Positions 23,258 through 59,126 of a DNA stretch of 64,000 bases are shown here, piece by piece. The stretch spans positions 1-64,000 of the forward strand of contig DVIZ01000081.1 of NCBI GenBank assembly GCA_018710905.1, in the 5' to 3' direction. The notes below the pieces were generated by a model, which worked only from the letters and a program-made list of their open reading frames with translations, was not told where the DNA came from and did not search any database. The first letter of the stretch is position 1; each line of letters starts with the position of its first letter. The DNA is from Candidatus Scybalomonas excrementigallinarum (GTDB lineage Bacteria > Bacillota > Clostridia > Lachnospirales > Lachnospiraceae). A program made the position numbers and the translations under genes.

Positions 23258-25834
23258 TTATGCTTCATTTTTTCCACAGCAATGTTTATATTTCTTTCCT
23301 GAACCACATGGACATGGATCATTTCTTCCGATTTTTTCAGACATTCTAACAATTGGTCTTTTTCCGCCTGTTGTGTCTTTATTTGTACCAGTTACTTTTG
23401 CAACTTCTTCTCTTTCCACTTTTTGTTCAATACGAACATGTAAAAGAGCTTGTGCAGTTTCTTCACGAATGGCTTCTGCCATTTCATCGAACATTGCATA
23501 ACCTGTAAATTTATATTCTACAACTGGATCTCTTTGTCCATATGCCTGTAAACCAATACCTTGACGAAGTTGATCCATATCATCAATATGATCCATCCAT
23601 TTACGGTCAATGACACGGAGAAGAATTACGCGTTCAATTTCACGAAGATGTTCTGGTTCTGGGAACTCAGCTTCTTTTGCTTCGTATAATTTTGCAGCTT
23701 CTTCTTTTAATCTCTGGATCAGTTCTGCTTTCTTACCATTCTTTTGTTCTTCCTCTGTTAATTCAATTCTCTTAACTGGAATTACGGAAAGAAGTTCGTT
23801 GTTAAGACTTTCTAAATCCCAATCTTTTGCTGGCTGATCATCACCAATTACACGATTTACATAGTCTTCCACTGTATCTAAAATCATTTTGTAGATAACG
23901 TCTCTCATATTTTCACCATCTAATACACGACGACGTTCTCCGTAAATGATTTCTCTTTGTTCATTATTTACGCGGTCATATTCAAGTAAGTTTTTACGAA
24001 TACCGAAGTTATTTCCTTCAATCTTCTTTTGGGCTTTTTCGATAAAGTTTGTAAGAGTCTTATGCTGAATCTCTTCTCCTTTTGGAAGATTTAACGCTTT
24101 ATACATTCCCATAACTCTTTCAGAACCGAAAAGACGCATTAAATCATCTTCTAATGATAAGTAGAATTTAGATTCCCCTGGATCTCCTTGACGCCCAGCA
24201 CGACCACGGAGCTGGTTGTCAATACGTCTTGATTCATGGCGTTCTGTACCAATAATTTTAAGCCCGCCAAGATCTTCTACGCCTTTTCCAAGCTTGATAT
24301 CCGTACCACGACCTGCCATATTTGTAGCAATTGTAACAGCGCCACGAACACCAGCTTCTGCGATAATTTCGGCTTCTAATTCATGGAATTTCGCATTCAA
24401 TACTTTATGTGGAATATGACGTTTTTTCAAACGAGAACTTACTTCCTCTGATGCTTCAATTGTCACAGTACCAACTAAGACTGGTTGTCCTTTTTCATGA
24501 CTTTCTGCGATATCATTGATAACTGCATCTAATTTCTCTTCCTTTGTGCAATAAACAGCATCATCATGATCCTTACGAACCATAGGTTTATTTGTAGGAA
24601 TCACAATAACGTCCATTCCATAAATTTCACGGAATTCTTGTTCTTCTGTCTGAGCAGTACCTGTCATACCAGATTTTTTTGCATATTTATTGAAGAAATT
24701 CTGGAATGTAATTGTTGCAAGAGTTTTACTTTCTCTATTTACTTTTACATGTTCCTTAGCTTCAATCGCCTGATGAAGACCGTCAGAATATCTTCTTCCT
24801 GGCATAATACGTCCAGTAAACTCATCAACGATCAATACTTCATCGTCTTTTACAACATAATCTTTGTCACGGAACATTAAGTTATGAGCTCTTAATGCAA
24901 GAATCATGTTATGCTGAATTTCTAAGTTTTCTGGATCTGCAAGGTTTTCAATTTTGAAAAACTCTTCTACTTTTTGAATACCTTGTGCTGTCAACATAAC
25001 TTGTTTGTCTTTTTCATTTACAAGGAAATCTCCATCTTCTTTGACATCTTCACCCATAATAGCGTCAATTTTGGATAATTCTCCTGTTGAAGTACCTCTT
25101 TCTAATTTTCTAGCCACAAAATCACACATCTTATAAAGCTCTGTGGATTTTCCGCTCTGTCCAGAAATAATAAGAGGTGTTCTCGCTTCATCGATTAATA
25201 CAGAGTCAACCTCATCCACGATTGCATAATGTAAGTCTCTTTGAACGAGTTGCTCTTTATAAATAACCATGTTATCTCTTAAATAGTCAAAACCTAATTC
25301 GTTATTTGTAATATAAGTAATATCACAATTATAAGCTTTTCTTCTTTCATCTGGTTCAGAGCTATTTAAAATAACACCAACTTTTAATCCTAAGAAATTA
25401 TGAATTTGTCCCATAATTTCAGCGTCACGTTTTGCTAAGTAATCATTTACTGTTACAACATGAACACCTTTTCCTTCTAACGCATTTAAGTATGCTGGAA
25501 GTGTAGAAACTAATGTTTTACCTTCACCTGTTTTCATCTCTGCAATACGTCCCTGGTGAAGAATAATACCACCAATTAATTGTACTCGGTAATGTTTCAT
25601 ACCAACCGTACGAACAGCTGCTTCTCTTACAACTGCAAATGCTTCTGGTAAAATATCATCTAATGTTTCACCATCAGCAAGACGTTTTTTAAATTCTTCT
25701 GTTTTCCCTTTAAGTTCCTCATCTGTAAGTGCCTGCATTGTTTCATCTAATGCTTCAATCTTTTCCACTAAAGGCATAATACGTTTAATTTCTTTTTCGC
25801 TATGGGAACCAAAAATTTTCTCTAAAATATTCAT
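23258..25834 (-). CDS. secA: protein translocase ATPase SecA
   Basis: The ATP-driven motor that pushes preproteins through SecYEG. At 858 residues it is of normal length. Walker A MKTGEGKT, the DEAD-like [20 protein letters not shown], the second-domain [10 protein letters not shown] and [13 protein letters not shown] motifs are all intact. The C-terminal zinc finger [13 protein letters not shown], which contacts SecB or the ribosome in relatives, is present. It has its own promoter and terminator. Confidence 0.97.
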
Positions 25835-25878
25835 TTATCTTTCACTCCTGTGATTCGTTCGGAATATTGTCAAACTAC

Positions 25879-25907
25879 ATTGTACCATTGAATTTCCTTA
25901 TAAGCAA
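25879..25907 (-). promoter_or_regulatory. secA promoter
   Basis: Minus strand TTGCTT (25902-25907), 17-bp spacer, TACAAT (25879-25884), about 45 bp before the secA ATG. Confidence 0.7.
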
Positions 25908-26170
25908 CGAAATTCTAAATTCTTAACAAAATGTCCATATTTGAACTTTTTGTTAGAAACAGATCTATTTTTAAAGTTTTTTCAATCTTTAAAGAAATCG
26001 AGCACCAAACCCAATACTCCCTCCCCTTATTTCATTATAGCTCTCCTTTCTTTTATCCATACTTGAAAAAACCATCTAATAAAAAAATATACAATATTCT
26101 AGGCGTCTTTTCAAGAAAAATATGCGGTAATTTCTGTAAATCTTGGAAAAGAGTCACAATCGATTCACAT
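25908..26170. other. gene-free gap between hpf terminator and secA promoter
   Basis: About 260 bp of AT-rich DNA. A 92-codon plus-strand frame crosses it, but it has no ribosome site, has Lys/Phe/Ile-rich composition and runs through the hpf terminator, so I do not call it a gene. No RNA gene was recognised. Confidence 0.5.
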
Positions 26171-26219
26171 AAAAAAGAAGTATCACGAAACGATAAGCGT
26201 CCTTTGTGATACTTCTTTT
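26171..26219 (-). terminator. terminator after hpf
   Basis: Arms AAAAGAAGTATCAC and GTGATACTTCTTTT form a perfect 14-bp stem, with T6 following on the minus strand. It lies about 95 bp beyond the hpf stop codon. The plus strand also has a short T run, so it may act in both directions. Confidence 0.8.
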
Positions 26220-26314
26220 CCCCATATTATTTGCTACATCAAAAACCCTTCCTTGATGTAACCCCACCTTGCTTTATGAATTATGGACTGCTTGTCCAAC
26301 ATAAAACTCAAATT

Positions 26315-26848
26315 TTAATACTCAGGTTCAATCAGACCATATGTATGACCTTTTCTCTTATATACAACATTTACTTCATCTGTTTCCACATTACGGAATA
26401 CGTAGAAATCATGTCCTAACATTTCCATTTGTAGGCATGCTTCCTCTGGATCCATAGGTTTTATAGCAAACTGTTTGCTTCTAAAAATCTTAATTTCTTC
26501 ATCATCGGTTTCTTCTTCAACGAATGATGGTTGGAAAAATCCACCTGCTTGTTTTTGTTGCACTAATTTATTTTTATATTTACGAACTTGACGCTCGATA
26601 ATATCTACAACTAAATCGATAGATACATACATATCATCACTAGATTGTTCTGCACGGATGATACTTCCTTTCATAGGAATTGTAACTTCAATTTTCTGCC
26701 TGTCCTTTTCAACACCAAATGTAACATGAATCTCTGTATTATCTGTAAAATACTTAGAAAGTCTATCGATTTTCTTTTCAACTGTATTCTTTAAAGCCTC
26801 TGTCACTTCAATGTTCTTCCCAATAATAATGTAACGCATATGGTCCAA
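26315..26848 (-). CDS. hpf: ribosome hibernation promoting factor, long form
   Basis: A 177-residue long-type HPF. The N-terminal S30AE domain (about 1-100, opening MRYIIIGKNIEVTEALKNTVEKKI) binds the small subunit. The C-terminal domain (about 120-177, with IFRSKQFAIKPMDPEEACLQMEMLGHDFYVFRN) drives 100S dimer formation. The ORF may start at either of two nearby Met codons. It is monocistronic, with its own promoter and terminator. Confidence 0.95.
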   Translation of the reverse strand: MDHMRYIIIGKNIEVTEALKNTVEKKIDRLSKYFTDNTEIHVTFGVEKDRQKIEVTIPMKGSIIRAEQSSDDMYVSIDLVVDIIERQVRKYKNKLVQQKQAGGFFQPSFVEEETDDEEIKIFRSKQFAIKPMDPEEACLQMEMLGHDFYVFRNVETDEVNVVYKRKGHTYGLIEPEY

Positions 26849-26931
26849 CTCCTTCTATGTCATATTATCCGATGAGCTATCACGGATAGACGTCCAACAA
26901 AAGCATCCAATCTCCTGTTGTTCATAGTCAT

Positions 26932-26959
26932 ATTATACCATAATTATTATTTTTTTCAA
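26932..26959 (-). promoter_or_regulatory. hpf promoter
   Basis: Minus strand TTGAAA (26954-26959), 16-bp spacer, TATAAT (26932-26937). An inverted repeat ATCCG...CGGAT follows in the leader at about 26868-26889. Confidence 0.65.
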
Positions 26960-27415
26960 TCACTTATCTACATTTTTTATAATTTTTTATTAATTATTTC
27001 ATTCTATTTTATATTGAAAAAATTCTCAGATTTTTATCATTTTTATAACATAATAATTGATAACGTAGTTTTTATGATTTTTCAAATGTTTTTACTTGGT
27101 TTTATAATAATTCACCAAAACATTTGTTCCATTTTCGACATTATTTTTTCTTCTTTCTACATATATCATTTTGTGGATAATGTGGATAACTTTGTGTATA
27201 ACTCAAAATCATCTTTTCTACTCATTCTTTTCCTGTGTATGATTTATAATTTTTATCCACATAATCCACATCGTAATTTTTACTTTTCCATTTTTCGCCA
27301 TTTCTTTGTGCATTTTGTACATGCCCTACCTATATCATTGATATTCAATTCCTATTGTATTCCTATTTTTATCAAAAAATTCCAAAACGAGAATACTGCT
27401 TTTATTTTCTCTCAC
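26960..27415. other. very AT-rich intergenic region around the DnaA-box cluster
   Basis: About 450 bp between the hpf promoter and the NlpC/P60 terminator, dominated by T runs and A/T tracts. A 193-codon plus-strand frame spans it, but it is Phe/Ile/Tyr-rich with no homology or ribosome site and looks accidental. Apart from the DnaA boxes I see no gene. Confidence 0.6.
27172..27270. promoter_or_regulatory. cluster of DnaA boxes
   Basis: Three back-to-back reverse boxes: TGTGGATAA (27172-27180), TGTGGATAA (27181-27189), TGTGTATAA (27193-27201). Two forward boxes abut: TTATCCACA (27253-27261) and TAATCCACA (27262-27270). A weaker TGTGTATGA is at 27234-27242. Four match the TTATNCACA consensus fully. 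DnaA is the replication initiator and also a regulator. Such density in AT-rich DNA is typical of origins, but no dnaA or dnaN lies in this window. Confidence 0.75.
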
Positions 27416-27484
27416 CAAAAAAAGCTATCCTATAAAACGAACTTTTTTCTTCCACATCCGTCTTATAAGATAGCTATTTTTTAC
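27416..27484 (-). terminator. terminator after the NlpC/P60 gene
   Basis: Minus strand: AAAAAATAGCTATCTTATAAG pairs imperfectly with CTTATAGGATAGCTTTTTTT-like sequence across a long loop and ends in a T run. Confidence 0.65.
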
Positions 27485-27544
27485 CTATATACTTTTTAAA
27501 TTAACCATACAATATACGATACGAGTTTATAATCCACTTTATTG

Positions 27545-28903
27545 TTATCCTAGAATACTTCTTGCACAATATGGAGTTCTATAATACATATTAGAAATTT
27601 TAATTCCTGATTCTGGAGAACTTGCATGAACAACTTGTCCATTTCCAATATAAAGTGCAACGTGACCAATGCTACTTCCATTCTTATAGAAAATTAAATC
27701 TCCAGGCTGTACATCGCTTAAAGAAACTGATCTTCCATTTGTAGCTTGTTCTCTAGAAGTACGGCTAATAGAAATACCGAAGTTTCTATATACAGATTGT
27801 GTAAATCCAGAACAATCTGTTCCATTTGTTAAACTTGTTCCTCCATATACATATGGATTTCCTACAAACTGCACTGCAAAATTAACAATATTTTGTCTTG
27901 TTGTTGACCCTGCACTGCTATAGCTCTTGTCAGATGAACTTGAACTTCCAGAACTGCTGTTACTACTTGATGAGCTAGAAGAACTTGAGCTACTTGATGT
28001 ATTTGATGAATTTGAGGAACTAGAAGTATTTGATGTACTTGATGAACTAGATGCACTTTCAGCTTCTGCTTGCTGTCTTTGTTCTTCTGCTTGTCTTTCT
28101 AACTCACGGGCTGCTGCTTCTTCCGCTTTTTTCTCTTCTTCTCTAGAAACAGCATCATCAAATTGGAAGTCAATATCTACATATTCTTTTGATACATAGC
28201 CTTTTACGTCTTGATCTACCTTAATTGCAACCCAATTTTTTCCTTCTTTAAGAACTTTATAGTCCTCACCTTCTGGTACTAATGTTAATATTTTTGCTTT
28301 TTGTGTCGCCTTTTCACGCACTCTTAATGTTTGTGCTGTAACAGTTGCTACTTTTTTACAAACTTTATTTGCGTAGGTTTCTACCTCTTCTCCTGTTACA
28401 AGAAACTCATCTTTTACCCAACCGGTTACTTCTCCAGATTCGATTTTTGTCCATCCATTTTTTTGTTTTAAAATCGTTCCTGCTGCACCTTTATATAACT
28501 TTCCAACTACTTTTGCTTCTTCTGTTGGATGTTTACGCACATTTAAATAATTATTAACTTTTGCTAATACGATTCCATCATATTTGGATGTTTCTTTTTT
28601 CTCTTCTGCTGCCTCTTTTTTTGCTTTCTCCTGATCTTCCGTACTTGGAATATCTTTTTCGTCCACTGTCTTTACTTCTGTCGCTCCTGCTGCTAATGGA
28701 TCTTGTTGTTGTTCTGTTGTCTCTTCTGGCTCCACTGGACTTTGATCTTCTGCAACATTTACAATATCATCCATAGAAAGGGAAAATCCTGCCACTGCTG
28801 TTGTTGAAAAAATGCTCTCAGCATGAGCTTGTACAGTTCCTGCACCTAAACATGCAGCCACTGCCATTAAGGCAAAAGATGCCTTTGTTTTTAAAAATCT
28901 CAT
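27545..28903 (-). CDS. secreted SH3-NlpC/P60 peptidoglycan hydrolase
   Basis: A 452-residue secreted cell-wall enzyme. A signal peptide (about 1-28, ending VQAHAES) is followed by a Glu/Gln-rich stretch and two bacterial SH3 domains (about 110-175 and 180-245). After these come a charged helix, a serine-rich linker of about 50 residues, and a C-terminal NlpC/P60 domain (about 335-452). The catalytic Cys364 is in TDCSGF, and His414 in IGHVALYIG and His426 in VVHAS complete the site. It should cut D-Glu-diamino-acid bonds in peptidoglycan, for growth or cell separation. Confidence 0.93.
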   Translation of the reverse strand: MRFLKTKASFALMAVAACLGAGTVQAHAESIFSTTAVAGFSLSMDDIVNVAEDQSPVEPEETTEQQQDPLAAGATEVKTVDEKDIPSTEDQEKAKKEAAEEKKETSKYDGIVLAKVNNYLNVRKHPTEEAKVVGKLYKGAAGTILKQKNGWTKIESGEVTGWVKDEFLVTGEEVETYANKVCKKVATVTAQTLRVREKATQKAKILTLVPEGEDYKVLKEGKNWVAIKVDQDVKGYVSKEYVDIDFQFDDAVSREEEKKAEEAAARELERQAEEQRQQAEAESASSSSSTSNTSSSSNSSNTSSSSSSSSSSSSNSSSGSSSSSDKSYSSAGSTTRQNIVNFAVQFVGNPYVYGGTSLTNGTDCSGFTQSVYRNFGISISRTSREQATNGRSVSLSDVQPGDLIFYKNGSSIGHVALYIGNGQVVHASSPESGIKISNMYYRTPYCARSILG

Positions 28904-45297: not shown

Positions 45298-46234
45298 ATT
45301 CCTCCATCTTTAAACTGTTATAGTTTGTATTGGGTACTTGTAAAAAATATAACTTCTTTTCCCATACATACTCCTCTTGTTCTCTTATAAATTTTAAAAA
45401 GTTTTCCTTCTTCCGATTAGCAGTCTCCCCTTCTAGTGTAGGAATAAAAATCCGATCGAATAGTGAAAAGATACTAAAATCAAATAAACTACCGGTACCA
45501 ATATCAAATACGATCCTCTCGTAAGTTCCTTCTTCCTTTAACTGTTCTAATAGCCATTCAATATCTTCTCGTTCTAACATTCTTAAATCCAAGTAACACC
45601 GAGGAGAAGGTACTAAATAGCTTTGTCCTTCTTGAATCGAGAACTGCTTTAATCGAACATGAAATCCCTCATCTTTATTTTTCATATAATATAAGAGTTC
45701 TTGACTAATGCCTGTCTCATCTTCAAAACTACCATACTCTTCAAATCCAATATAAAGACTTCTCCCCATATAATTGGCACAAATTCCTCTCGCTAAATTC
45801 GTTTTTCCACATCTCCCAATCGGCGAATATACCGCATAAATAAGACAGTCCTTTTGCCTACCTACGGAAAGCCGCCTCTCCCTTCCTTCCTCTATAGCAT
45901 CTAAAATATTTTTTAATAACATCTCCCCTGACTGATACTTATATACACTTCCCGTTTGTATTTTTAGCGCTTCTTCTGTCAACCAAAGAATCTTTGTATC
46001 ACCTTCTAGTTCTACCTCCATCTGCTCTCCCAATAAAATAAGATCCACTTTTTGTTCTTTGATATAATGAAAAAGATGTTCCTCATTCGTAAATGCTACC
46101 CCCGAACACGGATATTCTTTTTCCCCATTCATATAGTTCATAAGAGAAAATGCAAAATCCACTTCCTCATCACAGATCGCTACTTTATATTTTTTCAACA
46201 AGTATCCCTCCTCGTTCTTCTTCATTGCCATCAT
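45257..46234 (-). CDS. TadZ/CpaE-like pilus localisation protein
   Basis: A 325-residue protein. An N-terminal receiver-like domain (about 14-115) without the full phosphorylation set precedes a MinD/ParA-like ATPase domain. Its P-loop reads SPIGRCGKTNLA, a deviant Walker A. TadZ proteins place Tad systems at their site in the cell. The ATG at 46234 has GAAGG upstream. A TTG after GAGGAGG near 46200 is an alternative start that would drop about 12 residues. First gene of the Tad operon. Confidence 0.85.
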   Translation of the reverse strand: MMAMKKNEEGYLLKKYKVAICDEEVDFAFSLMNYMNGEKEYPCSGVAFTNEEHLFHYIKEQKVDLILLGEQMEVELEGDTKILWLTEEALKIQTGSVYKYQSGEMLLKNILDAIEEGRERRLSVGRQKDCLIYAVYSPIGRCGKTNLARGICANYMGRSLYIGFEEYGSFEDETGISQELLYYMKNKDEGFHVRLKQFSIQEGQSYLVPSPRCYLDLRMLEREDIEWLLEQLKEEGTYERIVFDIGTGSLFDFSIFSLFDRIFIPTLEGETANRKKENFLKFIREQEEYVWEKKLYFLQVPNTNYNSLKMEEYVSELFREEKAVF

Positions 46235-46263
46235 TATATTCCTTCTTTTCCCCTCTGCATAGA

Positions 46264-46291
46264 AAAGGGTGTCCCAACTAGGGACACCTTT
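46264..46291 (-). other. hairpin in the 5' region of the Tad operon
   Basis: Minus strand AAAGGTGTCCC, loop TAGTT, GGGACACCCTTTTCT, 30 bp before tadZ. It has a weak T run, so it may be an attenuator or an mRNA-stabilising 5' hairpin. No single promoter upstream was clear. Confidence 0.6.
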
Positions 46292-46376
46292 CTCTTGACT
46301 TTTCGTATCATTTTTTCTATCAATCTTATTTTTTTGTCATCATTTTTCCATGTTTTATATTTTTTTATATTTTCTA

Positions 46377-46405
46377 TTGACAAATAAAAAATTTATCTTT
46401 AGAAT
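46377..46405 (+). promoter_or_regulatory. promoter of the marR-ABC exporter operon
   Basis: TTGACA (46377-46382), 17-bp spacer, TAGAAT (46400-46405). It implies a leader of about 200 nt before the marR start. Confidence 0.78.
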
Positions 46406-46411
46406 CTAATA

Positions 46412-46425
46412 GTTAGTAACCTAAC
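46412..46425 (+). promoter_or_regulatory. probable MarR operator
   Basis: Inverted repeat GTTAG-TAAC-CTAAC, located where transcription should start (6 bp after the -10). The position and the arm sequence suit autorepression by the MarR protein encoded downstream. Confidence 0.6.
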
Positions 46426-46427
46426 AT

Positions 46428-46525
46428 TTTTTATTTACGCAAAGATAATGAACCACGAAAGAGCATGTATGCTCCTATATGGCGACTGTCTGCGAACATG
46501 AGAAATTTATAAAAATACTTCTCAT
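46428..46525 (-). repeat. dispersed leader element, copy B
   Basis: Minus strand: TGAGAAG...ATTTCTCATGTTCGCAGACAGTCG, then the tail CTTTGCGTAAATAAAA. It matches copies A and C in hairpin, TGTTCG-GACAGTCG block and tail, but is inverted relative to the marR transcript. An extra small hairpin GAGCATGTATGCTC is at 46471-46484. Similarity may extend right to about 46580. Confidence 0.55.
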
Positions 46526-46619
46526 CTACTAATGTGGAATTTTCCAATTTTTCATCGTTACCATGTGGAAACAAACTCCATCAGTTTCCCACATTCATAA
46601 GCCAGAAGGAGGTGTTATC

Positions 46620-47084
46620 GTGTTGGAAGAATCTAAGGAGGAAAAAGAAATCCCTTTTGGAAGGCTTATTCATGTCATTTCTCGGAAATTGAAACAGCAT
46701 AATTTAATTTCAGGGGAAGATATGTGCCTTACTCCTATGCAAAAACATATTTTAAAATTTATTCTTCTTGAAACAATGCATCGAGATCTTTATCAAAAAG
46801 ATGTGGAAGAAGAATTTAAAATTCGCCGTTCCACAACAACTGGTATTTTACAGCTTATGGAAAAAAATGGTTTTATTTATCGAGAAAGCGTCGCAAAAGA
46901 TGCTCGATTAAAACGAATTATTCCTACCAAGAAGGCTGAGGCACTGCGAGAACAAATTTTGGAAAACATCGTTCAAAGAGAAAAAAAAATGACACATGGG
47001 ATTAAGGAAGAGGATTTAACATTATGTAGAGCTGTTCTAAAACAAATCCTTGCAAACCTTACAGAAGAACAAGAAGAAAAATAG
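46620..47084 (+). CDS. MarR-family transcriptional regulator
   Basis: A 154-residue winged-helix regulator. I use the GTG at 46620, 7 nt after GAAGGAGG; the frame is open further upstream, but that extension runs into the leader. Core helix-turn-helix: LYQKDVEEEFKIRRSTTTGILQLMEKNGFIYRE, with wing SVAKDARLKRIIPT. It is followed within 11 bp by two ABC exporter genes, which it very likely represses until a toxic ligand binds. Confidence 0.93.
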   Translation: MLEESKEEKEIPFGRLIHVISRKLKQHNLISGEDMCLTPMQKHILKFILLETMHRDLYQKDVEEEFKIRRSTTTGILQLMEKNGFIYRESVAKDARLKRIIPTKKAEALREQILENIVQREKKMTHGIKEEDLTLCRAVLKQILANLTEEQEEK

Positions 47085-47094
47085 GAGGAACATT

Positions 47095-48828
47095 ATGAAT
47101 CGAAAACTTTTCAAATCTATTCGAGAATACAAAAAAGAGTCGATTCTCGCACCAATTTTCGTTATTTTAGAAGTTTTTATGGAAGTTTTAATTCCATTTC
47201 AAATGTCAAAAATTATCGATATTGGTATTATGAATCAAGACTTAAACTATATTATTAAAGTTGGTCTCTCTCTTGTTGTATTAGCAATGCTCGCTCTGTT
47301 TTTTGGTGTAAAAGCTGGTAATTATGCCGCTACTGCTGGAGCAGGATATGCCAAAAACTTGCGTCATGATATTTTTTATAAAGTACAAGACTTTTCTTTT
47401 AAAAATATCGATAATTTCTCAACATCAAGCCTTGTAACAAGAATGACAACAGACATCACAAATGTTCAAATGGCTTATATGATGAGTATTCGTCTTTTAG
47501 CGAGAGCACCATTTATGATCATCTTATCTATGATTATGACGGTACAACTTAATAAACAGATCGCTCTTTTATTCTTAATTACCATTCCAATTCTTGGGGG
47601 ACTTCTTATCTTTATCGCTAAGAAAGCACACCCTCATTTTATTAAAGTATTTGATGAATATGATATTTTAAATAATACAGTTCAAGAAAATGTAAATGCA
47701 TCTCGCGTTGTAAAGGCTTATGTACGAGAAGACCATGAAATTGAAAAATTCCATAAAATTTCAGCAGTCGTATATCGTCTCTTTACAAAAGCAGAGAAAA
47801 TCGTTGCTTGGAACTCCCCTGTTATGCAGTTTACTATGTATGTTGTTATTCTTTGCATTGTTTTAATCAGTGGAAAAGCGATTGTCTTTGGTTCTATGGA
47901 ATCTGGACAATTAACAAGCGTTATCGTTTATGCATTACAGATACTTATGTCACTTATGATGGTTACTTTCGTATTTGTTATGATTATGATCGCAGAAGCA
48001 TCTACCGATCGTATTACTGAAGTTCTTGATGAAGTTCCAGAAATGCAAAATAAACCAAACGCTATCAAAGAAGTTCCAAATGGTGACATTGACTTTGAAA
48101 ACGTAGACTTTAGTTATGCTGGAGAAGGCGGAAATCTTTCTTTAAAACAAGTAGACCTTCATATTAAATCTGGTCAAACAATTGGTATTATCGGTGGAAC
48201 TGGTAGTTCAAAATCCACTTTAGTACAATTGATTCCTCGCCTTTATGATGTAACAAAAGGTTCTGTAAAAGTTGGTGGAATTGATGTGCGTGAATATGAT
48301 TTAGAAGCGCTCCGCGATCAAGTATCTATGGTTTTACAAAAAAATGTATTATTTTCAGGAACGATTTATGAAAATATTCGCTGGGGTAATGAAAATGCCA
48401 CCGATGAAGAAGTACAACATGTGTGTAAATTAGCGCAAGCCGATCCTTTTGTTCAAGAGTTTCCAAAAGGCTATGATACTATGATTGTACAAGGTGGTAA
48501 CAACGTATCTGGTGGTCAAAAACAGCGTCTTTGTATTGCAAGAGCACTTCTTAAGAAACCAAAAATTCTTATTCTTGATGACTCTACAAGTGCTGTTGAT
48601 ACAAAAACAGATGCTATGATTCGTAAAGCATTCCGTGAAGAAATTCCTGATACAACAAAGATTATTATTGCACAGCGTGTTTCTTCTATTGAAGATGCGG
48701 ATCAAATTATTGTTCTTGATGACGGTAAGATCAACGGAATCGGAACTTCTGAAGAATTATTGAAAACAAATGAAATTTATCGTGAAGTATATGAATCCCA
48801 AATGAAAGGAGGAAATGAAGATGAGTAA
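47095..48828 (+). CDS. heterodimeric ABC exporter subunit, degenerate-site partner
   Basis: A 577-residue half transporter: six membrane helices (about 1-310) and one ATPase domain. Walker A is GGTGSSKST, with Ser where Gly is usual. The signature VSGGQ is intact. Walker B ends LILDDSTSAVD, with Asp in place of the catalytic Glu. This pattern marks the degenerate half of TM287/288-type exporters. The ATG follows TAGGAGGAA. It overlaps the next gene by 8 bp. Confidence 0.93.
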   Translation: MNRKLFKSIREYKKESILAPIFVILEVFMEVLIPFQMSKIIDIGIMNQDLNYIIKVGLSLVVLAMLALFFGVKAGNYAATAGAGYAKNLRHDIFYKVQDFSFKNIDNFSTSSLVTRMTTDITNVQMAYMMSIRLLARAPFMIILSMIMTVQLNKQIALLFLITIPILGGLLIFIAKKAHPHFIKVFDEYDILNNTVQENVNASRVVKAYVREDHEIEKFHKISAVVYRLFTKAEKIVAWNSPVMQFTMYVVILCIVLISGKAIVFGSMESGQLTSVIVYALQILMSLMMVTFVFVMIMIAEASTDRITEVLDEVPEMQNKPNAIKEVPNGDIDFENVDFSYAGEGGNLSLKQVDLHIKSGQTIGIIGGTGSSKSTLVQLIPRLYDVTKGSVKVGGIDVREYDLEALRDQVSMVLQKNVLFSGTIYENIRWGNENATDEEVQHVCKLAQADPFVQEFPKGYDTMIVQGGNNVSGGQKQRLCIARALLKKPKILILDDSTSAVDTKTDAMIRKAFREEIPDTTKIIIAQRVSSIEDADQIIVLDDGKINGIGTSEELLKTNEIYREVYESQMKGGNEDE

Positions 48829-50719
48829 TCAAAAACCTCATGGAAAACCAAAAGTTACAAAAGAGACGATTAAAACAGCAAAGCGTCTTCTTCGCTATGT
48901 GACTTCTCGTTTTAAACTTCAATTTATTGCGGTATTTATCTGTATTATTATCAGTTCTATCGCCTCTATTTCCGTATCCCTTTCACTAAAGTTCTTAGTT
49001 GACGACTTTATTCTTCCATTAGTCGGACAGCAAGATCCTAACTTTGGCGAATTGTATCGAGCTCTTGCCATTTTAGCAACTATTTTTGCCGCAGGTGTTA
49101 TTGCTACTTTTATTTATAGCAGACTTATGGTTAAAATCGGACAAGGCGTTTTAAAACAAGTTCGTGATGATATGTTCGAACATATGCAAAAGCTCCCAAT
49201 CCGCTACTTTGATCAAAATACAAATGGTTCTATTATGAGCCTTTACACCAATGATACGGATACTCTTCGTCAGATGATTAACCAGTCCATTCCACAGGTA
49301 TTAATGTCATCTATTACGATTATTGCAACTTTTATTTCCATGCTTGTTTTAAGTCCAATTCTTACGATTTTAGCCATTGTTATGATCTTCATCTTAGTCT
49401 TTGTTACAAAGAAGATCGGTGGAAACAGTGGAAAATACTTCCTTCGTCAACAGTTAGCTCTTGCTGATGTAACAGGATTTGTTGAAGAACGTATGAATGG
49501 ACAGCGTGTTATTAAAATCTTCAACCATGAACGCGTATCCGAAGAAGAATTTGATGCTTTAAATGAACAACTTTTTATGGCAGCATCAAATGCCAACCGT
49601 TTTGCTAACATGATGGGACCAATTATTGGTAACTTAGGAAACCTTCAATTCGTATTAACTGCTGTATTAGGTGGAGCTTTATCCATCTTTGGTATTGGTG
49701 GTATTACCTTCGGTACAATCGCTTCTTATTTGCAGTTTACAAAGAGCTTCACACAGCCATTTATGCAAGTAGCACAACAGTTTAACTCCATCGTTATGGC
49801 ATTAGCTGGTGCAGAACGAATCTTCCAAATGATTGATGAAACACCAGAAGTTGATGAAGGCTATGTTACTTTAGTCAATGCCAAAAAAGATGAAAATGGA
49901 AACATTGTAGAATGTAAAGAAAGAACTGGTCTTTGGGCATGGAAACACCCTCACCAAGCAGACGGAACTGTTACTTATACAGAATTAACTGGTGATGTTC
50001 GTTTCTTTGACATGACATTTGGTTATACGGATGAGAAAATGGTTCTCCACAATGTATCACTTTTTGCAAAACCTGGTCAAAAAATCGCATTTGTTGGTTC
50101 TACTGGTGCAGGTAAAACAACAATTACAAACTTAATCAACCGTTTCTACGATGTACAAGACGGTAAGATTCGCTATGATGGAATCAATATTAATAAAATT
50201 AAAAAAGCGGATTTAAGACGTTCTCTTGGTATCGTTCTTCAAGATACTCATTTATTTACAGGAACGATTATGGAAAATATCCGTTACGGTAAATTAGATG
50301 CTACCGATGAAGAAGTATATGAAGCAGCAAAACTTGCACATGCAGATCAATTTATCAATATGCTTCCAAATGGTTATAACACTCTATTAAGTGGAGATGG
50401 AGAAGAATTATCCCAAGGACAAAGACAGTTATTATCCATTGCGAGAGCAGCCGTTGCTAACCCTCCAGTATTAATCCTCGATGAAGCTACATCAAGTATT
50501 GATACTCGTACAGAAAGTATTGTACAAAAGGGTATGGATAACTTAATGAAAGACCGTACTGTTTTCGTTATCGCTCATAGACTTTCTACAATTCGAAACA
50601 GCGATGCCATTATGGTATTAGATCATGGTCGTATTATTGAACGTGGTTCTCACGAAGATTTAATTAAAGAAAAGGGAACTTACTATCAATTATATACTGG
50701 TAAATTAGAGTTAGATTAA
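48821..50719 (+). CDS. heterodimeric ABC exporter subunit, catalytic partner
   Basis: A 632-residue half transporter. Six membrane helices are followed by an insert of about 45 residues (with KDENGNIVECKERTGLWAWKH), then the ATPase domain. Walker A is GSTGAGKTT and Walker B ends LILDEATSSID with the catalytic Glu. The signature is LSQGQ, as in TM288. The ATG at 48821 is 8 nt after GGAGG and overlaps the previous stop codon. The pair probably exports drugs or lipophilic compounds. Confidence 0.93.
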   Translation: MSNQKPHGKPKVTKETIKTAKRLLRYVTSRFKLQFIAVFICIIISSIASISVSLSLKFLVDDFILPLVGQQDPNFGELYRALAILATIFAAGVIATFIYSRLMVKIGQGVLKQVRDDMFEHMQKLPIRYFDQNTNGSIMSLYTNDTDTLRQMINQSIPQVLMSSITIIATFISMLVLSPILTILAIVMIFILVFVTKKIGGNSGKYFLRQQLALADVTGFVEERMNGQRVIKIFNHERVSEEEFDALNEQLFMAASNANRFANMMGPIIGNLGNLQFVLTAVLGGALSIFGIGGITFGTIASYLQFTKSFTQPFMQVAQQFNSIVMALAGAERIFQMIDETPEVDEGYVTLVNAKKDENGNIVECKERTGLWAWKHPHQADGTVTYTELTGDVRFFDMTFGYTDEKMVLHNVSLFAKPGQKIAFVGSTGAGKTTITNLINRFYDVQDGKIRYDGININKIKKADLRRSLGIVLQDTHLFTGTIMENIRYGKLDATDEEVYEAAKLAHADQFINMLPNGYNTLLSGDGEELSQGQRQLLSIARAAVANPPVLILDEATSSIDTRTESIVQKGMDNLMKDRTVFVIAHRLSTIRNSDAIMVLDHGRIIERGSHEDLIKEKGTYYQLYTGKLELD

Positions 50720-50753
50720 TGATGAGAAATGTTTTCATAATTCTCACGTAAAG

Positions 50754-50788
50754 AAAAAGCCTAGTGATTCCCCTCACTAGGCTTTTTT
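50754..50788. terminator. bidirectional terminator between ABC exporter and bofA-like gene
   Basis: AAAAAGCCTAGTGA, loop TTCCCC, TCACTAGGCTTTTTT. A strong stem between convergent genes. A smaller hairpin TGAGAA...TTCTCA (50723-50746) precedes it. Confidence 0.9.
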
Positions 50789-50789
50789 C

Positions 50790-50996
50790 TTACCAAAAAA
50801 TCGAAAGTCCATATAGCAAACCAACTCCTGGAAGTCCAAGGCAAGCTACTACAGGGATTGTATAAAGATTAATTCCCACCAAAACAGGATATCCATTTTT
50901 TGTAAAAAATACATTCATAAAATGGATCACTAAAACCCCCAATACTGCTCTTAATATCAAGTTAATGCCCCATTCATTTCCTCTTTTTCCAAGCAT
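50790..50996 (-). CDS. BofA-like pro-sigma-K processing inhibitor family protein
   Basis: A 68-residue membrane protein with two hydrophobic segments. The ending GINLYTIPVVACLGLPGVGLLYGLSIFW matches the BofA family pattern (GIN...LGLPG..LL). BofA controls sigma-K activation in the forespore membrane in Bacillus, so this hints at a spore-forming lineage. No other sporulation gene is adjacent. The stop codon is two bases past the terminator. Confidence 0.78.
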   Translation of the reverse strand: MLGKRGNEWGINLILRAVLGVLVIHFMNVFFTKNGYPVLVGINLYTIPVVACLGLPGVGLLYGLSIFW

Positions 50997-51077
50997 ATTT
51001 CAATTCTCGTCCTTTTTTCTACATATATATTCAACGAAACAAATATGTATTCAAAAAACGATGCACAACCTATTTCT

Positions 51078-52568
51078 TTATCCAATATATTTTAGAATAT
51101 ATAAATAAGAAGCCTCTTTTTGATAAATCTGGAATGTCTCCATTCGTTTCCATTCTAAATGACGTTTCAATACCGATAGTGCAATGGATGGATCTTGGCT
51201 ATAAATAATGGCAATCCCATCCTTCTTCAAATGCTTTTGTCCTTTTTGTAATAATAATTCATATAGTTCTTCAATTTCTTTTTCCCCCTGTTTTCCTGTT
51301 GTAGACGGCATATTAACAACAATTTCGTCAAACAAATATTCATGGGAAAAATCTTTAAAATCTCTATGAATAAAATTAATCTGTGTTCTTGCTCTTTTTG
51401 CATTTTCTCTTCCACAGTCAATGGCCTTTCCGAAGAGATCTACTCCATAGAGGGGATGCGCAGGCAAAGCAAAATTGCGTTCAATTAACATCGTACCTGT
51501 TCCACAAAACGGATCTAGTACTTGGGCATTTTCTTTTAAATACGGACGGGCTAATTCCATAATGGTAGCAGCCGTCATTGGATTAATGGAAGTAGCAAGA
51601 ATTCCTTTTCGATAAGCAAAGCGATTATCAGGAATCGTATATAATTTTAAATAAGCGTGGTAACCACCATTTCTTCCTTCTAACAGTCGAATTTCCACTT
51701 CATAATCAGAAACAGAGTTGATAAGGCGATGAGAAGACTCCTTTTCCATAGCCATAGCAATCTTCTTTGCCATAACTCGCTTTTCTTCTATGGAAATTCT
51801 TCCTCTTAATTCCACACGGAATCGATAAGAACCGCCTCCTAAATGTCTGGCATCTAAAAATTCCATTAATCCTCCCATGAGAATGGTATGTGCCATTACT
51901 TTTGGATCCAGTGGCATATTTTTCGCAGATGGAAGTGGGAATAAAATTTCTTGCCATGTACGGATACTCATAAAATCTCTCATATCCTCATATTCTACTG
52001 CAACTCCACCGCTTATTTTTTTGCCATTGCAATGATAAAGTTGACGGAGTGTCAGTTCTGGATAATAACGATTGGTTGTCAATACAACCTTCCCTTGTTC
52101 ATCATATCCAATAAAATAATGGCTTTGTGTTCGTTCATATTGTCCAATTAAACTAGTAAGCTCTCGAATTTCCTCTGTAATATGTTTCTCTTGCTCTTCT
52201 GTAAATTTCTCAGATAATAAATACTCTAATCGTTCCTTAAACTTTGGCACATAACATTCACAATCAATTTTTTGAAATGCTTTTAAATAGGCCGTCTTAA
52301 CAAAGAGTGTTCCTTCTTCTTCATAAGCATCCAATAGTTCTGGAAGTAGTCCTTCTAATTCTAACTCACCTATGACTCCTGCCACATTTTTTCGAACTTT
52401 TGGATCTTCATGACAAAGCAATTCCTTTAGTAAGGTATAGTCATATTGCAAAAAAGAAAGAAAAGTATCTTGATGTTCTATACTTCCCTTTAACCATTTC
52501 TTTAACTCTATTAAGTTTTCGCGAACGTTTTGTCCTTGTTTTATATTATCAATAATCGTTTCCAGCAT
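51078..52568 (-). CDS. HEAT-like plus SAM-dependent methyltransferase, probably RNA-directed
   Basis: A 496-residue protein. I use the ATG at 52568, four nt after GGGAGG; an ATG 12 bp upstream overlaps that site. The N-terminal part (about 1-130) is helical and HEAT-like. A middle part (about 150-320) follows, then a Rossmann methyltransferase with motif I DPFCGTGTMLIE and motif IV VNMPSTTG. The fold order resembles THUMP/Trm14-type RNA methyltransferases, but motif IV is not the usual NPPY, so the substrate is uncertain. Confidence 0.8.
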   Translation of the reverse strand: MLETIIDNIKQGQNVRENLIELKKWLKGSIEHQDTFLSFLQYDYTLLKELLCHEDPKVRKNVAGVIGELELEGLLPELLDAYEEEGTLFVKTAYLKAFQKIDCECYVPKFKERLEYLLSEKFTEEQEKHITEEIRELTSLIGQYERTQSHYFIGYDEQGKVVLTTNRYYPELTLRQLYHCNGKKISGGVAVEYEDMRDFMSIRTWQEILFPLPSAKNMPLDPKVMAHTILMGGLMEFLDARHLGGGSYRFRVELRGRISIEEKRVMAKKIAMAMEKESSHRLINSVSDYEVEIRLLEGRNGGYHAYLKLYTIPDNRFAYRKGILATSINPMTAATIMELARPYLKENAQVLDPFCGTGTMLIERNFALPAHPLYGVDLFGKAIDCGRENAKRARTQINFIHRDFKDFSHEYLFDEIVVNMPSTTGKQGEKEIEELYELLLQKGQKHLKKDGIAIIYSQDPSIALSVLKRHLEWKRMETFQIYQKEASYLYILKYIG

Positions 52569-52754
52569 ATTGCCTCCCATAATTTTTTATCGTATTCAGT
52601 GTACGTTTCCTATCTTTTTTTATCTTAACATTAATCTGTTTTTATGACAACCAACCTCTTTTTTTATTTCCTATGGCTTATACAAAGAAAACTCCAATCA
52701 TGGATTTCAATATTTCCTTACTTTCCCGTCAGAAATTTTTAAGAAATCTTATAA

Positions 52755-52783
52755 TTTACATTACTTGTCCTATGTCTTATAAT
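52755..52783 (+). promoter_or_regulatory. promoter of the surface protein gene
   Basis: TTTACA (52755-52760), 17-bp spacer, TATAAT (52778-52783), about 80 bp before the ATG. The rest of the gap from 52569 is AT-rich with nothing else recognised. Confidence 0.7.
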
Positions 52784-52864
52784 AAAAGTAAACTACCATA
52801 AAATGGATAAACAAGAATAAAAAAATAGATATCAAAGATTTTTTTTGAAAGTGAGGAGTAAAAT

Positions 52865-55402
52865 ATGAGAACCAAAAAAAGATTCATTGCTTTTGCATTA
52901 GCTTCTGCAATGCTTATCACTGCTATGCCAGCTTCTGTTGCCACTGTAAAAGCAGCTACAACACCTACATTAACCGTAAGTAAGAAATACTTAAAAGTAG
53001 GCGATTCTTCCAAAATGTATATCAAAAATAAAGTGAAAGGTGCTACTTATAAATTCACAAGCAGCAATTCGAAAATCGCTTCTATTAATTCCAAAACAGG
53101 AGCAATTAAAGGTGTCGCTGTTGGAAAATGTAAAGTTACATTAAAAGCCACTGTCAATAAAAAGACTTATACAAGCAGTGCCACTATTATTGTAAAAGAA
53201 CACGCCCAAACAATAGAATTTGCTATCGATGATGAAACATTAACACTTCCAGTTGGAGAGAATGTTTACACATTTAAAACCGTTATGACTACAGAGACAG
53301 GTGGAAAATGTACGGATTATGATTACTTTGTTATTCCAGAAGATACCAACACTGCTGGTGCTACTATCGACGCTTCCAAAGGTATTGTAAGTGTTAAAAA
53401 TCCTGGTTCCTTCCAAGTAATCGCGTATGCTTCTACTTCTTGGAACGCCATGTTTAAGAAAAATAGTTATTACGCAAAAAGTGAACCACTTACCGTTACC
53501 GTTCCTACTACACTAGAAACTTCTATGGCATCGGTAAATACGATTAAGTTGAAATCTAATATTTCACTTTCTAAATATTCAAAAGATGACTATGTCGTTA
53601 CAAGTGAAGGCACTGGTCAAGTTTTAAAAGTGACTGATCTAGAACTTTCTTCCGATGGAAAAGAAGTGACTCTTACCACTTCTAATACATTCGGAAAAGG
53701 GGATACTTATACCGTTTCTTTAGCGGACCAAAATCTTTTAGACTCTTTTGTTGCTAATTATGGTACGATTGATAAAATTGTTGCCAATGATAATCAATCT
53801 ATCGCTCCAAACGTAGCAACACCTCTTGACTATACGATTTATGATGAAAATGGAGTGGACATTACAAAATTATATCCACATACAATGGCAGGATTTGATT
53901 TTATTTTTGAACCAAGTAGCACGACTTTAGATGACTATGGCCGTATTACGCTTCCAACAAAGAGCTCTTATGCGTTCTATACGATCCGCTATACTTACTT
54001 AGATAGCTCTAATAAAAAACAAGTAATTGAAAGTAATCGTGGACGCGTTACCGCTTCTGGATCTAACTTAAAAGCATTACAAAGCTACAGTATTTCTACC
54101 AATACAAACTTAGACTATTCCGATGCTGTCCATTCTGTAGCCGTAGGAGAGTCAAACTATAAACTTTATTGCTTATTTGAAAATTCTGTTGGTGGCACTC
54201 TTGATACATCAAAGACAACCATCAATAACTTAACCTTCACTTCCAATAACACTTCTATATGTGGAATTGACAGAACAACAGGACTTTTATTCCCTTACAA
54301 AGAAGGTACTGCTAAAATTACAATTAGCGATGGAATTTTCTCTACAGACGTAACAATTACCGTTGGGGAAGCGAAAAAAATAAACTCTCTTGTAGCAAGT
54401 GAGTCCAACATAACCGTTTCGAATTCCTCTGGTTTAAGCAACAGCCAATCCGTTCGTTTTGAACTTCGCGATCAATATGGATCTATTTATAAACTTCCAA
54501 TTACAGGCTCTTCTTATCCAACGGCAAGAATTATATCTGGAAATGAAAATATTGTGACTGTAAACGGAAATACAATTACAAAAACTATGAGCACGATTTA
54601 TACAAGCCCTTCTAGTGGTGTATTTAATTTAACATTTGCGGGAAAAAATAACGGAAGCTGTACGGTGGAAATTAGCTATGCCGGAAAAACTTCTCTCATT
54701 AATGTTACTGTCAAACAGCCTGGAGTCGTATCTACTTATAAGCCAGAACTTTCCAATACGGTTCTTGATCCAAATGTACAAGGCAAAAATTCTGCTATTT
54801 TAAAAGTATATGCGGTGGACGCAAATGGCATTAAAATCAGCACAGTATCCGAAGGTTACTATAGCATCGTTGCATCCGATGGAACGGTTATTGTCCCAAA
54901 TCAAATGATTACCGGCTCTTCTGGAGAAGTTATCGACGCAACAAAATTAAAATTAGCAGATGGAACTTATCGCCTCACTTTCACTTCTGGACCAATTACA
55001 GAATCTACAACCTTCCAAGTGAAAGCCTCTGATGCGATTATCAATCTCGTTCCTCAAAACACAACATCTGCTACTGTAAAAACAAAAGATGATGTAGCAA
55101 CAAAGATCTTTGATTGCTTTAACGTATATTTAAGTGGAAATTCTTCTGCGATTCCAGCTTCTACTTTAGTAACGGGATCTTCTCCACTGTTATCAAATGT
55201 GAAAGTATCCTTTAACTCTTATGACTCTAGATACTTTGACAGTGCCGTAGATTTAGCCATTGGCGGAAGAGATTTTAGCAAAAATTATATTGGCTATACC
55301 GCTAGTATTCGTGTGACTAAAATTTCATTCACTTATCTTGGCCAAACCTTTACTTTTGAACCAAATCAAGATTTAACATTACGTGTTCAAAGCGCTTCTT
55401 AA
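52865..55402 (+). CDS. secreted multi-domain Ig-like (Big_2) surface protein
   Basis: An 845-residue secreted protein. The signal peptide covers about 1-31 (ending VKAAT). A bacterial Ig-like group 2 domain follows (about 33-113: SKKYLKVGDSSKMYIKNKVKGATYKFTSS pattern, split here: SKKYLKVGD and GAIKGVAVGKCKVTLKA). Several further beta-rich Ig-like domains fill the rest, including one near 480-515 (GIDRTTGLLFPYKEGTAKITI). No LPXTG, SLH or catalytic motif was seen. It is probably a structural or adhesive surface protein. It stands alone, with its own promoter and terminator. Confidence 0.82.
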   Translation: MRTKKRFIAFALASAMLITAMPASVATVKAATTPTLTVSKKYLKVGDSSKMYIKNKVKGATYKFTSSNSKIASINSKTGAIKGVAVGKCKVTLKATVNKKTYTSSATIIVKEHAQTIEFAIDDETLTLPVGENVYTFKTVMTTETGGKCTDYDYFVIPEDTNTAGATIDASKGIVSVKNPGSFQVIAYASTSWNAMFKKNSYYAKSEPLTVTVPTTLETSMASVNTIKLKSNISLSKYSKDDYVVTSEGTGQVLKVTDLELSSDGKEVTLTTSNTFGKGDTYTVSLADQNLLDSFVANYGTIDKIVANDNQSIAPNVATPLDYTIYDENGVDITKLYPHTMAGFDFIFEPSSTTLDDYGRITLPTKSSYAFYTIRYTYLDSSNKKQVIESNRGRVTASGSNLKALQSYSISTNTNLDYSDAVHSVAVGESNYKLYCLFENSVGGTLDTSKTTINNLTFTSNNTSICGIDRTTGLLFPYKEGTAKITISDGIFSTDVTITVGEAKKINSLVASESNITVSNSSGLSNSQSVRFELRDQYGSIYKLPITGSSYPTARIISGNENIVTVNGNTITKTMSTIYTSPSSGVFNLTFAGKNNGSCTVEISYAGKTSLINVTVKQPGVVSTYKPELSNTVLDPNVQGKNSAILKVYAVDANGIKISTVSEGYYSIVASDGTVIVPNQMITGSSGEVIDATKLKLADGTYRLTFTSGPITESTTFQVKASDAIINLVPQNTTSATVKTKDDVATKIFDCFNVYLSGNSSAIPASTLVTGSSPLLSNVKVSFNSYDSRYFDSAVDLAIGGRDFSKNYIGYTASIRVTKISFTYLGQTFTFEPNQDLTLRVQSAS

Positions 55403-55433
55403 TTTCACTTTTCCTTTGTAGAAAAGCTATTTT

Positions 55434-55486
55434 AAAAGTGGTATCACATATCAAAAGATCTTTAGTTATGTGATACCACTTTTTTC
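55434..55486 (+). terminator. terminator after the surface protein gene
   Basis: AAAAGTGGTATCACATA, loop, TATGTGATACCACTTTTTT. A 17-bp perfect stem with a T run, about 30 bp after the stop codon. Confidence 0.92.
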
Positions 55487-55554
55487 CTCTCACAACTCAT
55501 AATCGATACAAACTTTTCCATAATTTTCATCAAGAAAACTAAACACAATCCCCC

Positions 55555-55583
55555 TTACAATTTGTTTCAAGATCATATATAAT
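55555..55583 (+). promoter_or_regulatory. promoter of the purine nucleoside phosphorylase gene
   Basis: TTACAA (55555-55560), 17-bp spacer, TATAAT (55578-55583), about 50 bp before the ATG. Confidence 0.7.
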
Positions 55584-55632
55584 GTCTTTATAAAACACAA
55601 TTATTATTTAAACTTTTAAGGAGGCTATTGTT

Positions 55633-56469
55633 ATGACAAGTGCGTACAAAAGATTATTAGATTGCTATGAAAGTATCAAAGATAGAATTCCTTTTACACC
55701 TAAAGTTGCTTTAATTCTTGGTTCTGGGCTTGGTGACTATGCAGACGGTATCCAAGTAGAAGCGGAAATCGATTATCATGAAATTAAAAATTTCCCTGTT
55801 TCTACCGTTGCAGGTCATAAAGGCCGTTTTGTATTTGGGCATGTTGATGAAGTGCCTGTTGTTATTATGCAAGGCCGCGTTCATTATTATGAAGGATATT
55901 CCATGGAAGATGTAGTTCTCCCAACTCGACTTATGAAAATGATGGGTGCTGAAATCTTATTTTTAACAAACGCTGCTGGCGGTGTTAATTACGACTTTAA
56001 TGTTGGAGATTTTATGCTCATTACCGATCAAATTTCAGACTTTGTTCCATCTCCTTTAATCGGACCAAATATTGATGAACTTGGATTACGTTTCTGCGAT
56101 ATGAGCAATATCTATCGTACCGAACTTTGTACTATTATTAAAGAAACTGCTAAAGAATTGCAAATTCCTTTACAAGAAGGTGTTTATATCCAGCTTTCAG
56201 GTCCAAACTTCGAAACTCCTCATGAAGTAAAAATGTGCCGTATTCTCGGTGCGGATGCTGTTGGTATGAGCACAGCTTGTGAAGCAATTGCAGCAAACCA
56301 TATGGGAATGAAAATCTGTGGAATTAGCTGTATTTCCAACTTAGGAGCTGGTATGAGTGAAGAACCTCTAAGCCATACCGAAGTACAAGAGACAGCCGAT
56401 CGCGTTGCTCCATTATTTAAGCAACTGATTACAGAGTCCATCAAAAACATTGCAAAAACTTTAGCATAA
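55633..56469 (+). CDS. purine-nucleoside phosphorylase (trimeric type)
   Basis: A 278-residue enzyme that splits inosine/guanosine-type nucleosides with phosphate into base and ribose 1-phosphate. The phosphate loop LGSGLGDYAD, the GRVHYYEGY motif and TNAAGGVN are all typical of the class II trimeric group. SGPNFETPHEVK and DAVGMSTACEA form the base site. AAGGAGG precedes the ATG. Its neighbours suggest it may also accept 5'-methylthioinosine or 5'-deoxyinosine. Confidence 0.93.
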   Translation: MTSAYKRLLDCYESIKDRIPFTPKVALILGSGLGDYADGIQVEAEIDYHEIKNFPVSTVAGHKGRFVFGHVDEVPVVIMQGRVHYYEGYSMEDVVLPTRLMKMMGAEILFLTNAAGGVNYDFNVGDFMLITDQISDFVPSPLIGPNIDELGLRFCDMSNIYRTELCTIIKETAKELQIPLQEGVYIQLSGPNFETPHEVKMCRILGADAVGMSTACEAIAANHMGMKICGISCISNLGAGMSEEPLSHTEVQETADRVAPLFKQLITESIKNIAKTLA

Positions 56470-56630
56470 GCTCTCTTTTGCTGTCAGGGAATTATTATTT
56501 TAAAGAATACAGATGCTTTCCACATAAAGAAATCTTTCCTAGATATTGTGTGGAAAACATTTTCTAAAACATAAATACTATTTTTAAATATAAGCCATAC
56601 TAGAAATTACATAGATAAAGGAGGAATCTT

Positions 56631-57719
56631 ATGGATTCTTTACAACAAGTAACACACATTGACAACGTAAAATTAAATGAGGACGAAACAAAAGTCGTTA
56701 TCATTGATCAGACACAACTTCCAAATGAAACCGAATATTTAACACTTGGAACAGCAAAAGATCTTTATGATGCTATTTTTGAATTAAAAGTCCGTGGAGC
56801 ACCTGCTATTGGTATCTGTGCAGGTTATGGTATTTACGTTCTCGCTCGCACAATTGAGACAGAGGATTATAATACTTTCTATGAAAAATTTGTGGAATAC
56901 AAAGACTATTTAAATTCTTCTCGTCCAACTGCTGTTAATTTAAGCTGGGCATTAAATCGTATGGAACGAGTGGTAACCGATAACAAAGAAAAACCTGTGA
57001 CAGAAATTAAACAACTTCTCTTAGCCGAAAGCAAAGAAATTCAAGCAGAAGATATGAGAATGTGTAAAGCCATCTCTGAATATGGTCTTTCTTTAATTAA
57101 AGATGGTGACGGTATTTTAACACACTGTAATGCAGGACCACTGGCAACTTCTCGTTATGGTACTGCTTTAGGACCACTCTTTTTAGGAAAAGAACGTGGT
57201 ATGAATTTCAAAGTATTTGCCGATGAAACAAGACCACTTCTTCAAGGAGCTCGTTTAACTTCTTATGAGCTTCAAAAAGGTGGAATCGATGTTACTTTAA
57301 TCTGTGATAACATGGCAAGTATCGTTATGAAAAATGGTTGGGTTAACGCTTGTTTTGTTGGTTGTGATCGCATTGCAGCAAATGGAGATGCAGCGAATAA
57401 AATTGGAACAAGCGGGGTTGCTATTTTAGCAAAATATTACGATATTCCTTTCTATGTATTAGGGCCAACTTCTACCATCGATATGAACTGCAAAACAGGA
57501 GAAGACATTGAAATCGAACTTCGCAATCCAGATGAAATTCGTGAAAAATTCTATGAAAAACCAATGGCATTAAAAGAAGTCAAATGCTACAACCCTGCTT
57601 TCGACGTAACCGATCATGAATTGATCGCTGGTATTGTCACAGAGTACGGAATTGCTCGTCCACCATATACAGAAAGTTTAAAAGAAATCTTTGAAAGAAA
57701 AATGAAAGAATCTTTTTAA
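56631..57719 (+). CDS. mtnA: S-methyl-5-thioribose-1-phosphate isomerase
   Basis: A 362-residue aldose-ketose isomerase of the methionine salvage pathway, turning methylthioribose 1-phosphate into the ribulose form. [13 protein letters not shown] at the N terminus, the catalytic Cys in [19 protein letters not shown] and the catalytic Asp in [10 protein letters not shown] are present. MtnA homologues also act on 5-deoxyribose 1-phosphate. No mtnB/C/D gene or aldolase lies in the window. A TTTCCACA...TGTGGAAA inverted repeat lies upstream at 56517-56556. Confidence 0.94.
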
Positions 57720-57784
57720 TAGGTAAAAACTGTAACTTCGAAAGAAAATTTTTAGATTACCTTATTGAAATGCAAGAAATAACG

Positions 57785-57813
57785 TTGTCAAACAAATACT
57801 ATGATGTTAGAAT
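57785..57813 (+). promoter_or_regulatory. promoter of the nucleoside importer operon
   Basis: TTGTCA (57785-57790), 17-bp spacer, TAGAAT (57808-57813), about 60 bp before the lipoprotein start. Confidence 0.7.
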
Positions 57814-57873
57814 GAGGTTATAGTATGAAATGACTCCAAACTGAAAATCTCGCATAATATGAAGGAGGAATAT

Positions 57874-59061: not shown

Positions 59062-59086
59062 TATTTTTATAAAAAATATGACTTCT

Positions 59087-59126
59087 GGGACAGTTCATTG
59101 CGACTGCGATGTGCTGTCCTTTCTTT
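59087..59126 (+). terminator. possible attenuating hairpin after the binding-protein gene
   Basis: GGGACAGTTCATTGC, GACT, GCGATGTGCTGTCC, followed by TTTCTTTT. It may stop part of transcription so that the lipoprotein is made in excess over the ATPase and permeases. Confidence 0.5.

Follow-up and report, generated by a model that had tools for sequence, protein, structure and literature searches.

Clusters of DnaA boxes outside oriC are already known. Bacillus subtilis has six of them (Okumura et al. 2012, as cited in PMC5295017, PMC13220808 and PMC11019786), in which consensus boxes lie in intergenic DNA away from oriC, beside varied genes. The element described here, located upstream of hpf in a 64-kb stretch of DNA (the window, by which we mean that whole stretch), is alike in these respects and has several consensus boxes within ~100 bp of intergenic DNA outside oriC, as do clusters of the DBC type. 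Among the eight high-affinity B. subtilis DnaA regions listed in PMC4447404, none is at hpf/yvyD or secA. In contrast to the B. subtilis clusters, for which we found no such description, the element has a fixed four-box geometry and a downstream palindrome across families. Its fixed geometry, palindrome and breadth set it apart.

Two Escherichia coli systems are also comparable. The datA locus, which lowers initiation, is likewise a non-coding, high-affinity DnaA-box locus outside oriC; the comparison is one of features. It is ~1 kb long with five boxes (PMC5295017) and needs IHF, of which B. subtilis has no homologue (PMC13220808). DARS1 and DARS2 resemble the element in their small box core, conserved arrangement and accessory sites, but boxes I and II of DARS run in opposite directions (PMC8682772), whereas the four conserved boxes here (D1 to D4) are all on one strand. 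A DARS-type core of opposed boxes was rejected on this ground, the opposed plus-strand pair in the window being local only. The element also recalls the DnaA-regulated promoters of the B. subtilis sda type, in which the gene behind a box cluster has a promoter of its own; however, the gene downstream of the element varies, and a long stretch separates the boxes from the predicted hpf promoter. We searched the literature, mostly outside subscription journals, for DnaA boxes beside hpf or within Lachnospiraceae and found no earlier description.

The limiting of free DnaA in Firmicutes is an unsettled matter. B. subtilis is without Hda, SeqA, IHF and datA (PMC13220808), and its six clusters act redundantly (PMC5295017). 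A single element of fixed geometry, kept in many genera and several families and recognisable by its sequence alone, is a clear-cut target for deletion in abundant gut bacteria; lineages without it, or with it parted from hpf, constitute a natural experiment.

The DnaA-box cluster in the window

An earlier note on this DNA had reported four perfect and two near DnaA boxes at 27172-27270. This cluster is real and far above chance. We identified four strict TTATNCACA boxes and two boxes with one mismatch (Table 1); the four strict boxes per 100 bp seen here compare with two at most under simulation, whether of the AT-rich gap (20,000 Markov runs) or of the 64-kb window (300 runs). The gap itself, from the nlpC stop (27545) to the hpf start (26839), measures 705 bp (24% GC) and not the 450 bp first given. 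The supposed near match at 27234 does carry one mismatch, but it belongs to the conserved set, exactly 53 bp from 27181-27189 as in relatives. The plus-strand abutting pair is absent from the closest relatives (L007/L122, L008). At the contig end of L008 (1-100), an apparent sequencing-adapter (transposon end) sequence makes a false TTATACACA box.

An Rfam search of window positions 25700-27700 returned no match to an RNA family. Within the hpf 5' leader (26848-26920, minus strand), a 21-codon ORF is possible, and TATCCG/CGGATA forms an inverted repeat.

Table 1. Features of the box cluster and its surroundings, in window coordinates
Feature	Position	Strand	Description	Basis
hpf	26315..26839	-	Long ribosome hibernation promoting factor; usual, non-obligatory neighbour	Pfam PF02482, PF16321
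Predicted sigma-A promoter of hpf	26932..26959	-	TTGAAA-16-TATAAT with TG	Consensus scan only
Palindrome	27118..27129	-	GAACAAATGTTT then TTGG; conserved, LexA-like core	Conservation in relatives
DnaA box D4	27172..27180	-	TTATCCACA, strict; abuts D3	Kept in 39-sequence alignment A1
DnaA box D3	27181..27189	-	TTATCCACA, strict	Alignment A1
DnaA box D2	27193..27201	-	TTATACACA, strict; precedes D3 by 12 bp start-to-start, leaving a 3-bp gap	Alignment A1
DnaA box D1	27234..27242	-	Distal box, diverged to TCATACACA (one mismatch); 53 bp start-to-start before D3	Alignment A1
Extra abutting pair	27253..27270	+	TTATCCACA-TAATCCACA (27253-27261 strict, 27262-27270 one mismatch); local, unconserved	Box scan
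SH3-NlpC/P60 gene (nlpC)	27545..28903	-	Upstream neighbour in many Lachnospiraceae	Pfam PF00877, PF08239; synteny

Geometry and distribution of the element

We collected 80 relatives of hpf, nearly all labelled Lachnospiraceae or close, and searched 81 hpf loci. Most of these loci have boxes upstream of hpf, on the hpf strand, in one shared arrangement: D1 (TTATCCACA), ~32 bp, D2 (TTATACAC), 3 bp, D3 (TTATCCACA) and, abutting it, D4 (TTATCCACA). Of 23 strict cases, 21 have D1 and D3 53 bp apart and the other 2 have them 52 bp apart; a part of D2, TTATNCAC, is near-invariant among relatives. A profile search (E <=0.0015) placed the element upstream of hpf in 63 of the 81 loci, the profile having been built from 21 of them, with essentially no matches elsewhere in the flanking DNA of the same loci. 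The earlier note had asked whether relatives keep the boxes next to hpf, and they do. Because the element is also kept in genomes of >50% GC, it is not a product of AT-richness. In other clostridial families the D1-D3 distance often falls to 43/44 bp, which is 53/54 bp less one helical turn (range seen 43-54 bp). The box cluster is a conserved, non-coding, non-origin element of clostridia with a fixed four-box geometry.

The palindrome beside the boxes reads GAACnnnnGTTTTGT in relatives, where it lies ~45-60 bp beyond D4; in some outgroups the motif is extended to a longer palindrome, ACAAAACnnnnGTTTTGT. Its core, GAACnnnnGTTT, is also the core of three boxes upstream of this genome's lexA (GAACATTTGTTT twice and GAACGTTCGTTT, compared with GAACAAATGTTT at the palindrome site). 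Two further motifs were observed nearby. TTGAC(n7-9)GTCAA occurs ~60 bp beyond the palindrome in L167, L169, L036 and L078 and is conserved with or without hpf, and a Spo0A-box-like TGTCGAA is found near the palindrome in the window (27134-27140, minus strand) and in several other carriers (L167, L169, L170).

The abutting box pair is present in 190 of 298 genomes of the family, against 2 matches for a reversed-pattern control among the genomes listed. Of the pairs inspected, some precede hpf, some lie between murC and dnaD, and the rest are at oriC or in other places. Across 393 genomes of the class, a sequence model (R1) matched 205 at E 0.001; this is an upper bound, since R1 scores any dense box array and some matches are therefore oriC or dnaD clusters. 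The window, which is among R1's own sequences, matches at 27170-27244 (minus strand, 54.6 bits). In other families, too, hpf is preceded by full-length matches, in the order SDR gene-element-hpf-secA (L252) or with a general stress gene (L253, L255) or a zinc-ribbon gene (L254, L257, L258) ahead of the element and hpf. Neighbour names in these other-family loci were read from sequence, except for hpf, secA and the zinc-ribbon gene (PF13451; Pfam, tested in L248). Many Lachnospiraceae have no element at hpf, and at many of these loci only ~130-250 bp separate nlpC from hpf, which looks like the loss of a block.

Other DnaA-box groups were seen alongside this survey. A second non-oriC cluster, with 3 strict and several near boxes, lies between murC and a dnaD-like gene (G000 contig C85:6129-6350; L006 1501-1750) and is conserved in many Lachnospiraceae; it may link DnaA to helicase-loader expression. 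Tandem boxes also occur just downstream of a 285-aa gene (G000 contig C65:5207-5226; L005) that looks like a replication initiator of a plasmid or other element.

Proposed DnaA binding at the element

The element uses the same 9-mer as this genome's oriC, and the genome's DnaA carries the box-binding domain Bac_DnaA_C (PF08299; Pfam). In vivo, E. coli DnaA binds mainly box pairs 2-3 bp apart (PMC11317965); the D2-D3 gap is 3 bp. We propose that DnaA would bind cooperatively at the D2-D3 pair and the neighbouring D4. D1, about five (or four) turns off and on the same face of the helix, would be drawn in by bending or looping of the DNA. The spacers differ by one turn, which leads us to infer that D1 needs to face D3, as it would where the DNA of the complex is bent or looped. 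Once assembled, the complex would keep DnaA from oriC or change its activity, so tuning the timing of initiation, perhaps with a putative accessory protein at the GAACnnnnGTTTTGT palindrome.

In B. subtilis, loss of the six non-oriC clusters leads to early initiation (PMC5295017, PMC13220808). Early initiation there, the box pairing and the spacers together lead us to favour sequestration of DnaA, in the manner of the B. subtilis clusters or E. coli datA; activity switching and control of hpf are the rivals. Of the three functions suggested in the earlier note (displaced origin, titration locus, control site for hpf), titration of DnaA is the best supported, given that the fixed geometry is kept and that the element survives without hpf. 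The probable role of this small, non-coding element is thus to retain or tune DnaA, and not to start replication or switch hpf. In its full form, in which the complex withholds DnaA from oriC or alters its activity, we hold the proposal of a conserved non-origin DnaA-binding element of clostridia with modest confidence. Three observations weigh against it: many Lachnospiraceae live without the element at hpf; the linkage of the element to hpf apparently dates from early on, and the two usually share an orientation; and the distance of the element from oriC is not fixed, ranging from 0.02 to 0.30 of the chromosome.

In a set of 50 complete or near-complete genomes, 19 elements are linked to hpf, and these are located 0.053-0.304 of the chromosome from dnaA. 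With this spread and only a weak bias, a position-dependent site like E. coli datA was rejected. A per-genus comparison of distance with that of element-less hpf gave p=0.04, and 15 genera, three of them from an incomplete list, departed from uniform at p=0.001 in a comparison that ignores shared ancestry. The oriC-proximal bias of the element is weak, and shared ancestry may explain it.

Relation to hpf and other readings

The element could instead be a DnaA-responsive cis regulator of hpf. DnaA bound upstream would then raise or lower hpf transcription, thereby linking ribosome hibernation to the state of replication, and LexA might act at the palindrome. In several families hpf is the steady downstream neighbour although the upstream genes vary (nlpC, trxB, divergent secA, SDR, zinc-ribbon, general stress). 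In nearly all loci the element keeps its orientation to hpf, and it travels along where the segment with hpf lies inverted beside secA. The core shared by the palindrome and the three boxes upstream of lexA would suit a role for LexA. On the other hand, in one locus (L115) the pair is reversed, and the predicted hpf -35 lies ~210 bp downstream of D4.

The two can also be separated. Three complete genomes (G070, G271, G249) have hpf at 0.30-0.34 of the chromosome from dnaA, and no box was found within 600 bp upstream of it; the element, the palindrome and the further downstream motif stay 0.017-0.042 from dnaA, before a DUF1858 gene. This gene, of ~70 codons, ruled out convergent flanks in these three genomes, and only G220 stands as such a case. 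There, the element lies between convergent nlpC and V-ATPase subunit D genes, with no ORF >=60 aa between them, and hpf is on another contig. In G167 the element follows trxB and precedes a thiolase gene, and no hpf was found in that genome at E 1e-20. In G562 and G768, an amino-acid transporter gene separates the zinc-ribbon gene and element from hpf. The palindrome is retained with the boxes where hpf is absent.

Because each occurs without the other, neither the element nor hpf needs the other. A simple hpf operator, present wherever hpf is and absent where it is not, was rejected on the same finding. By gene order, the element is not tied to hpf and is best read as an autonomous locus. The earlier suggestion of a DnaA-responsive control site for hpf draws on what is still its commonest neighbour in several families and is weakened by this separability; we consider such control rather unlikely.

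Beyond sequestration, one could envisage a dedicated, ancient clostridial locus at which a DnaA complex of fixed geometry, together with a palindrome-bound protein, resets DnaA in each cycle. It would be a counterpart of datA/DARS where such machinery is presumed lacking, and we regard this as improbable. In a related reading, the element would act in the way of datA or DARS and switch the activity of DnaA by changing its nucleotide state. The fixed multi-box geometry, the one-turn change of spacer (53/54 to 43/44) and the adjoining palindrome, as a possible site for an accessory protein, are features that recall datA and DARS2 (PMC8682772). Yet all four boxes point in the same direction, unlike boxes I and II of DARS, and B. 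subtilis has no homologues of IHF, Hda, DiaA or datA (PMC13220808); we view this activity-switch reading as quite improbable.

The genome (3.51 Mb in 208 contigs, the window being on C49) encodes a single full DnaA, on C191, where the dnaA/dnaN region has 10 strict boxes in the intergenic DNA on both sides of dnaA, a canonical bipartite oriC of the kind usual in clostridia (PMC7561715). A displaced or secondary origin at the box cluster, as the earlier note had considered, would fit its 24% GC intergenic setting but is rejected with very little doubt, because oriC sits at dnaA and the GC skew (-0.248 to -0.285 either side of the cluster at 27 kb) changes neither sign nor size there, and neither dnaA nor dnaN is adjacent. 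Farther along the window, at 46000-64000, GC skew goes from about -0.3 to ~0 and most genes turn to the plus strand, possibly reflecting a recent inversion or insertion.
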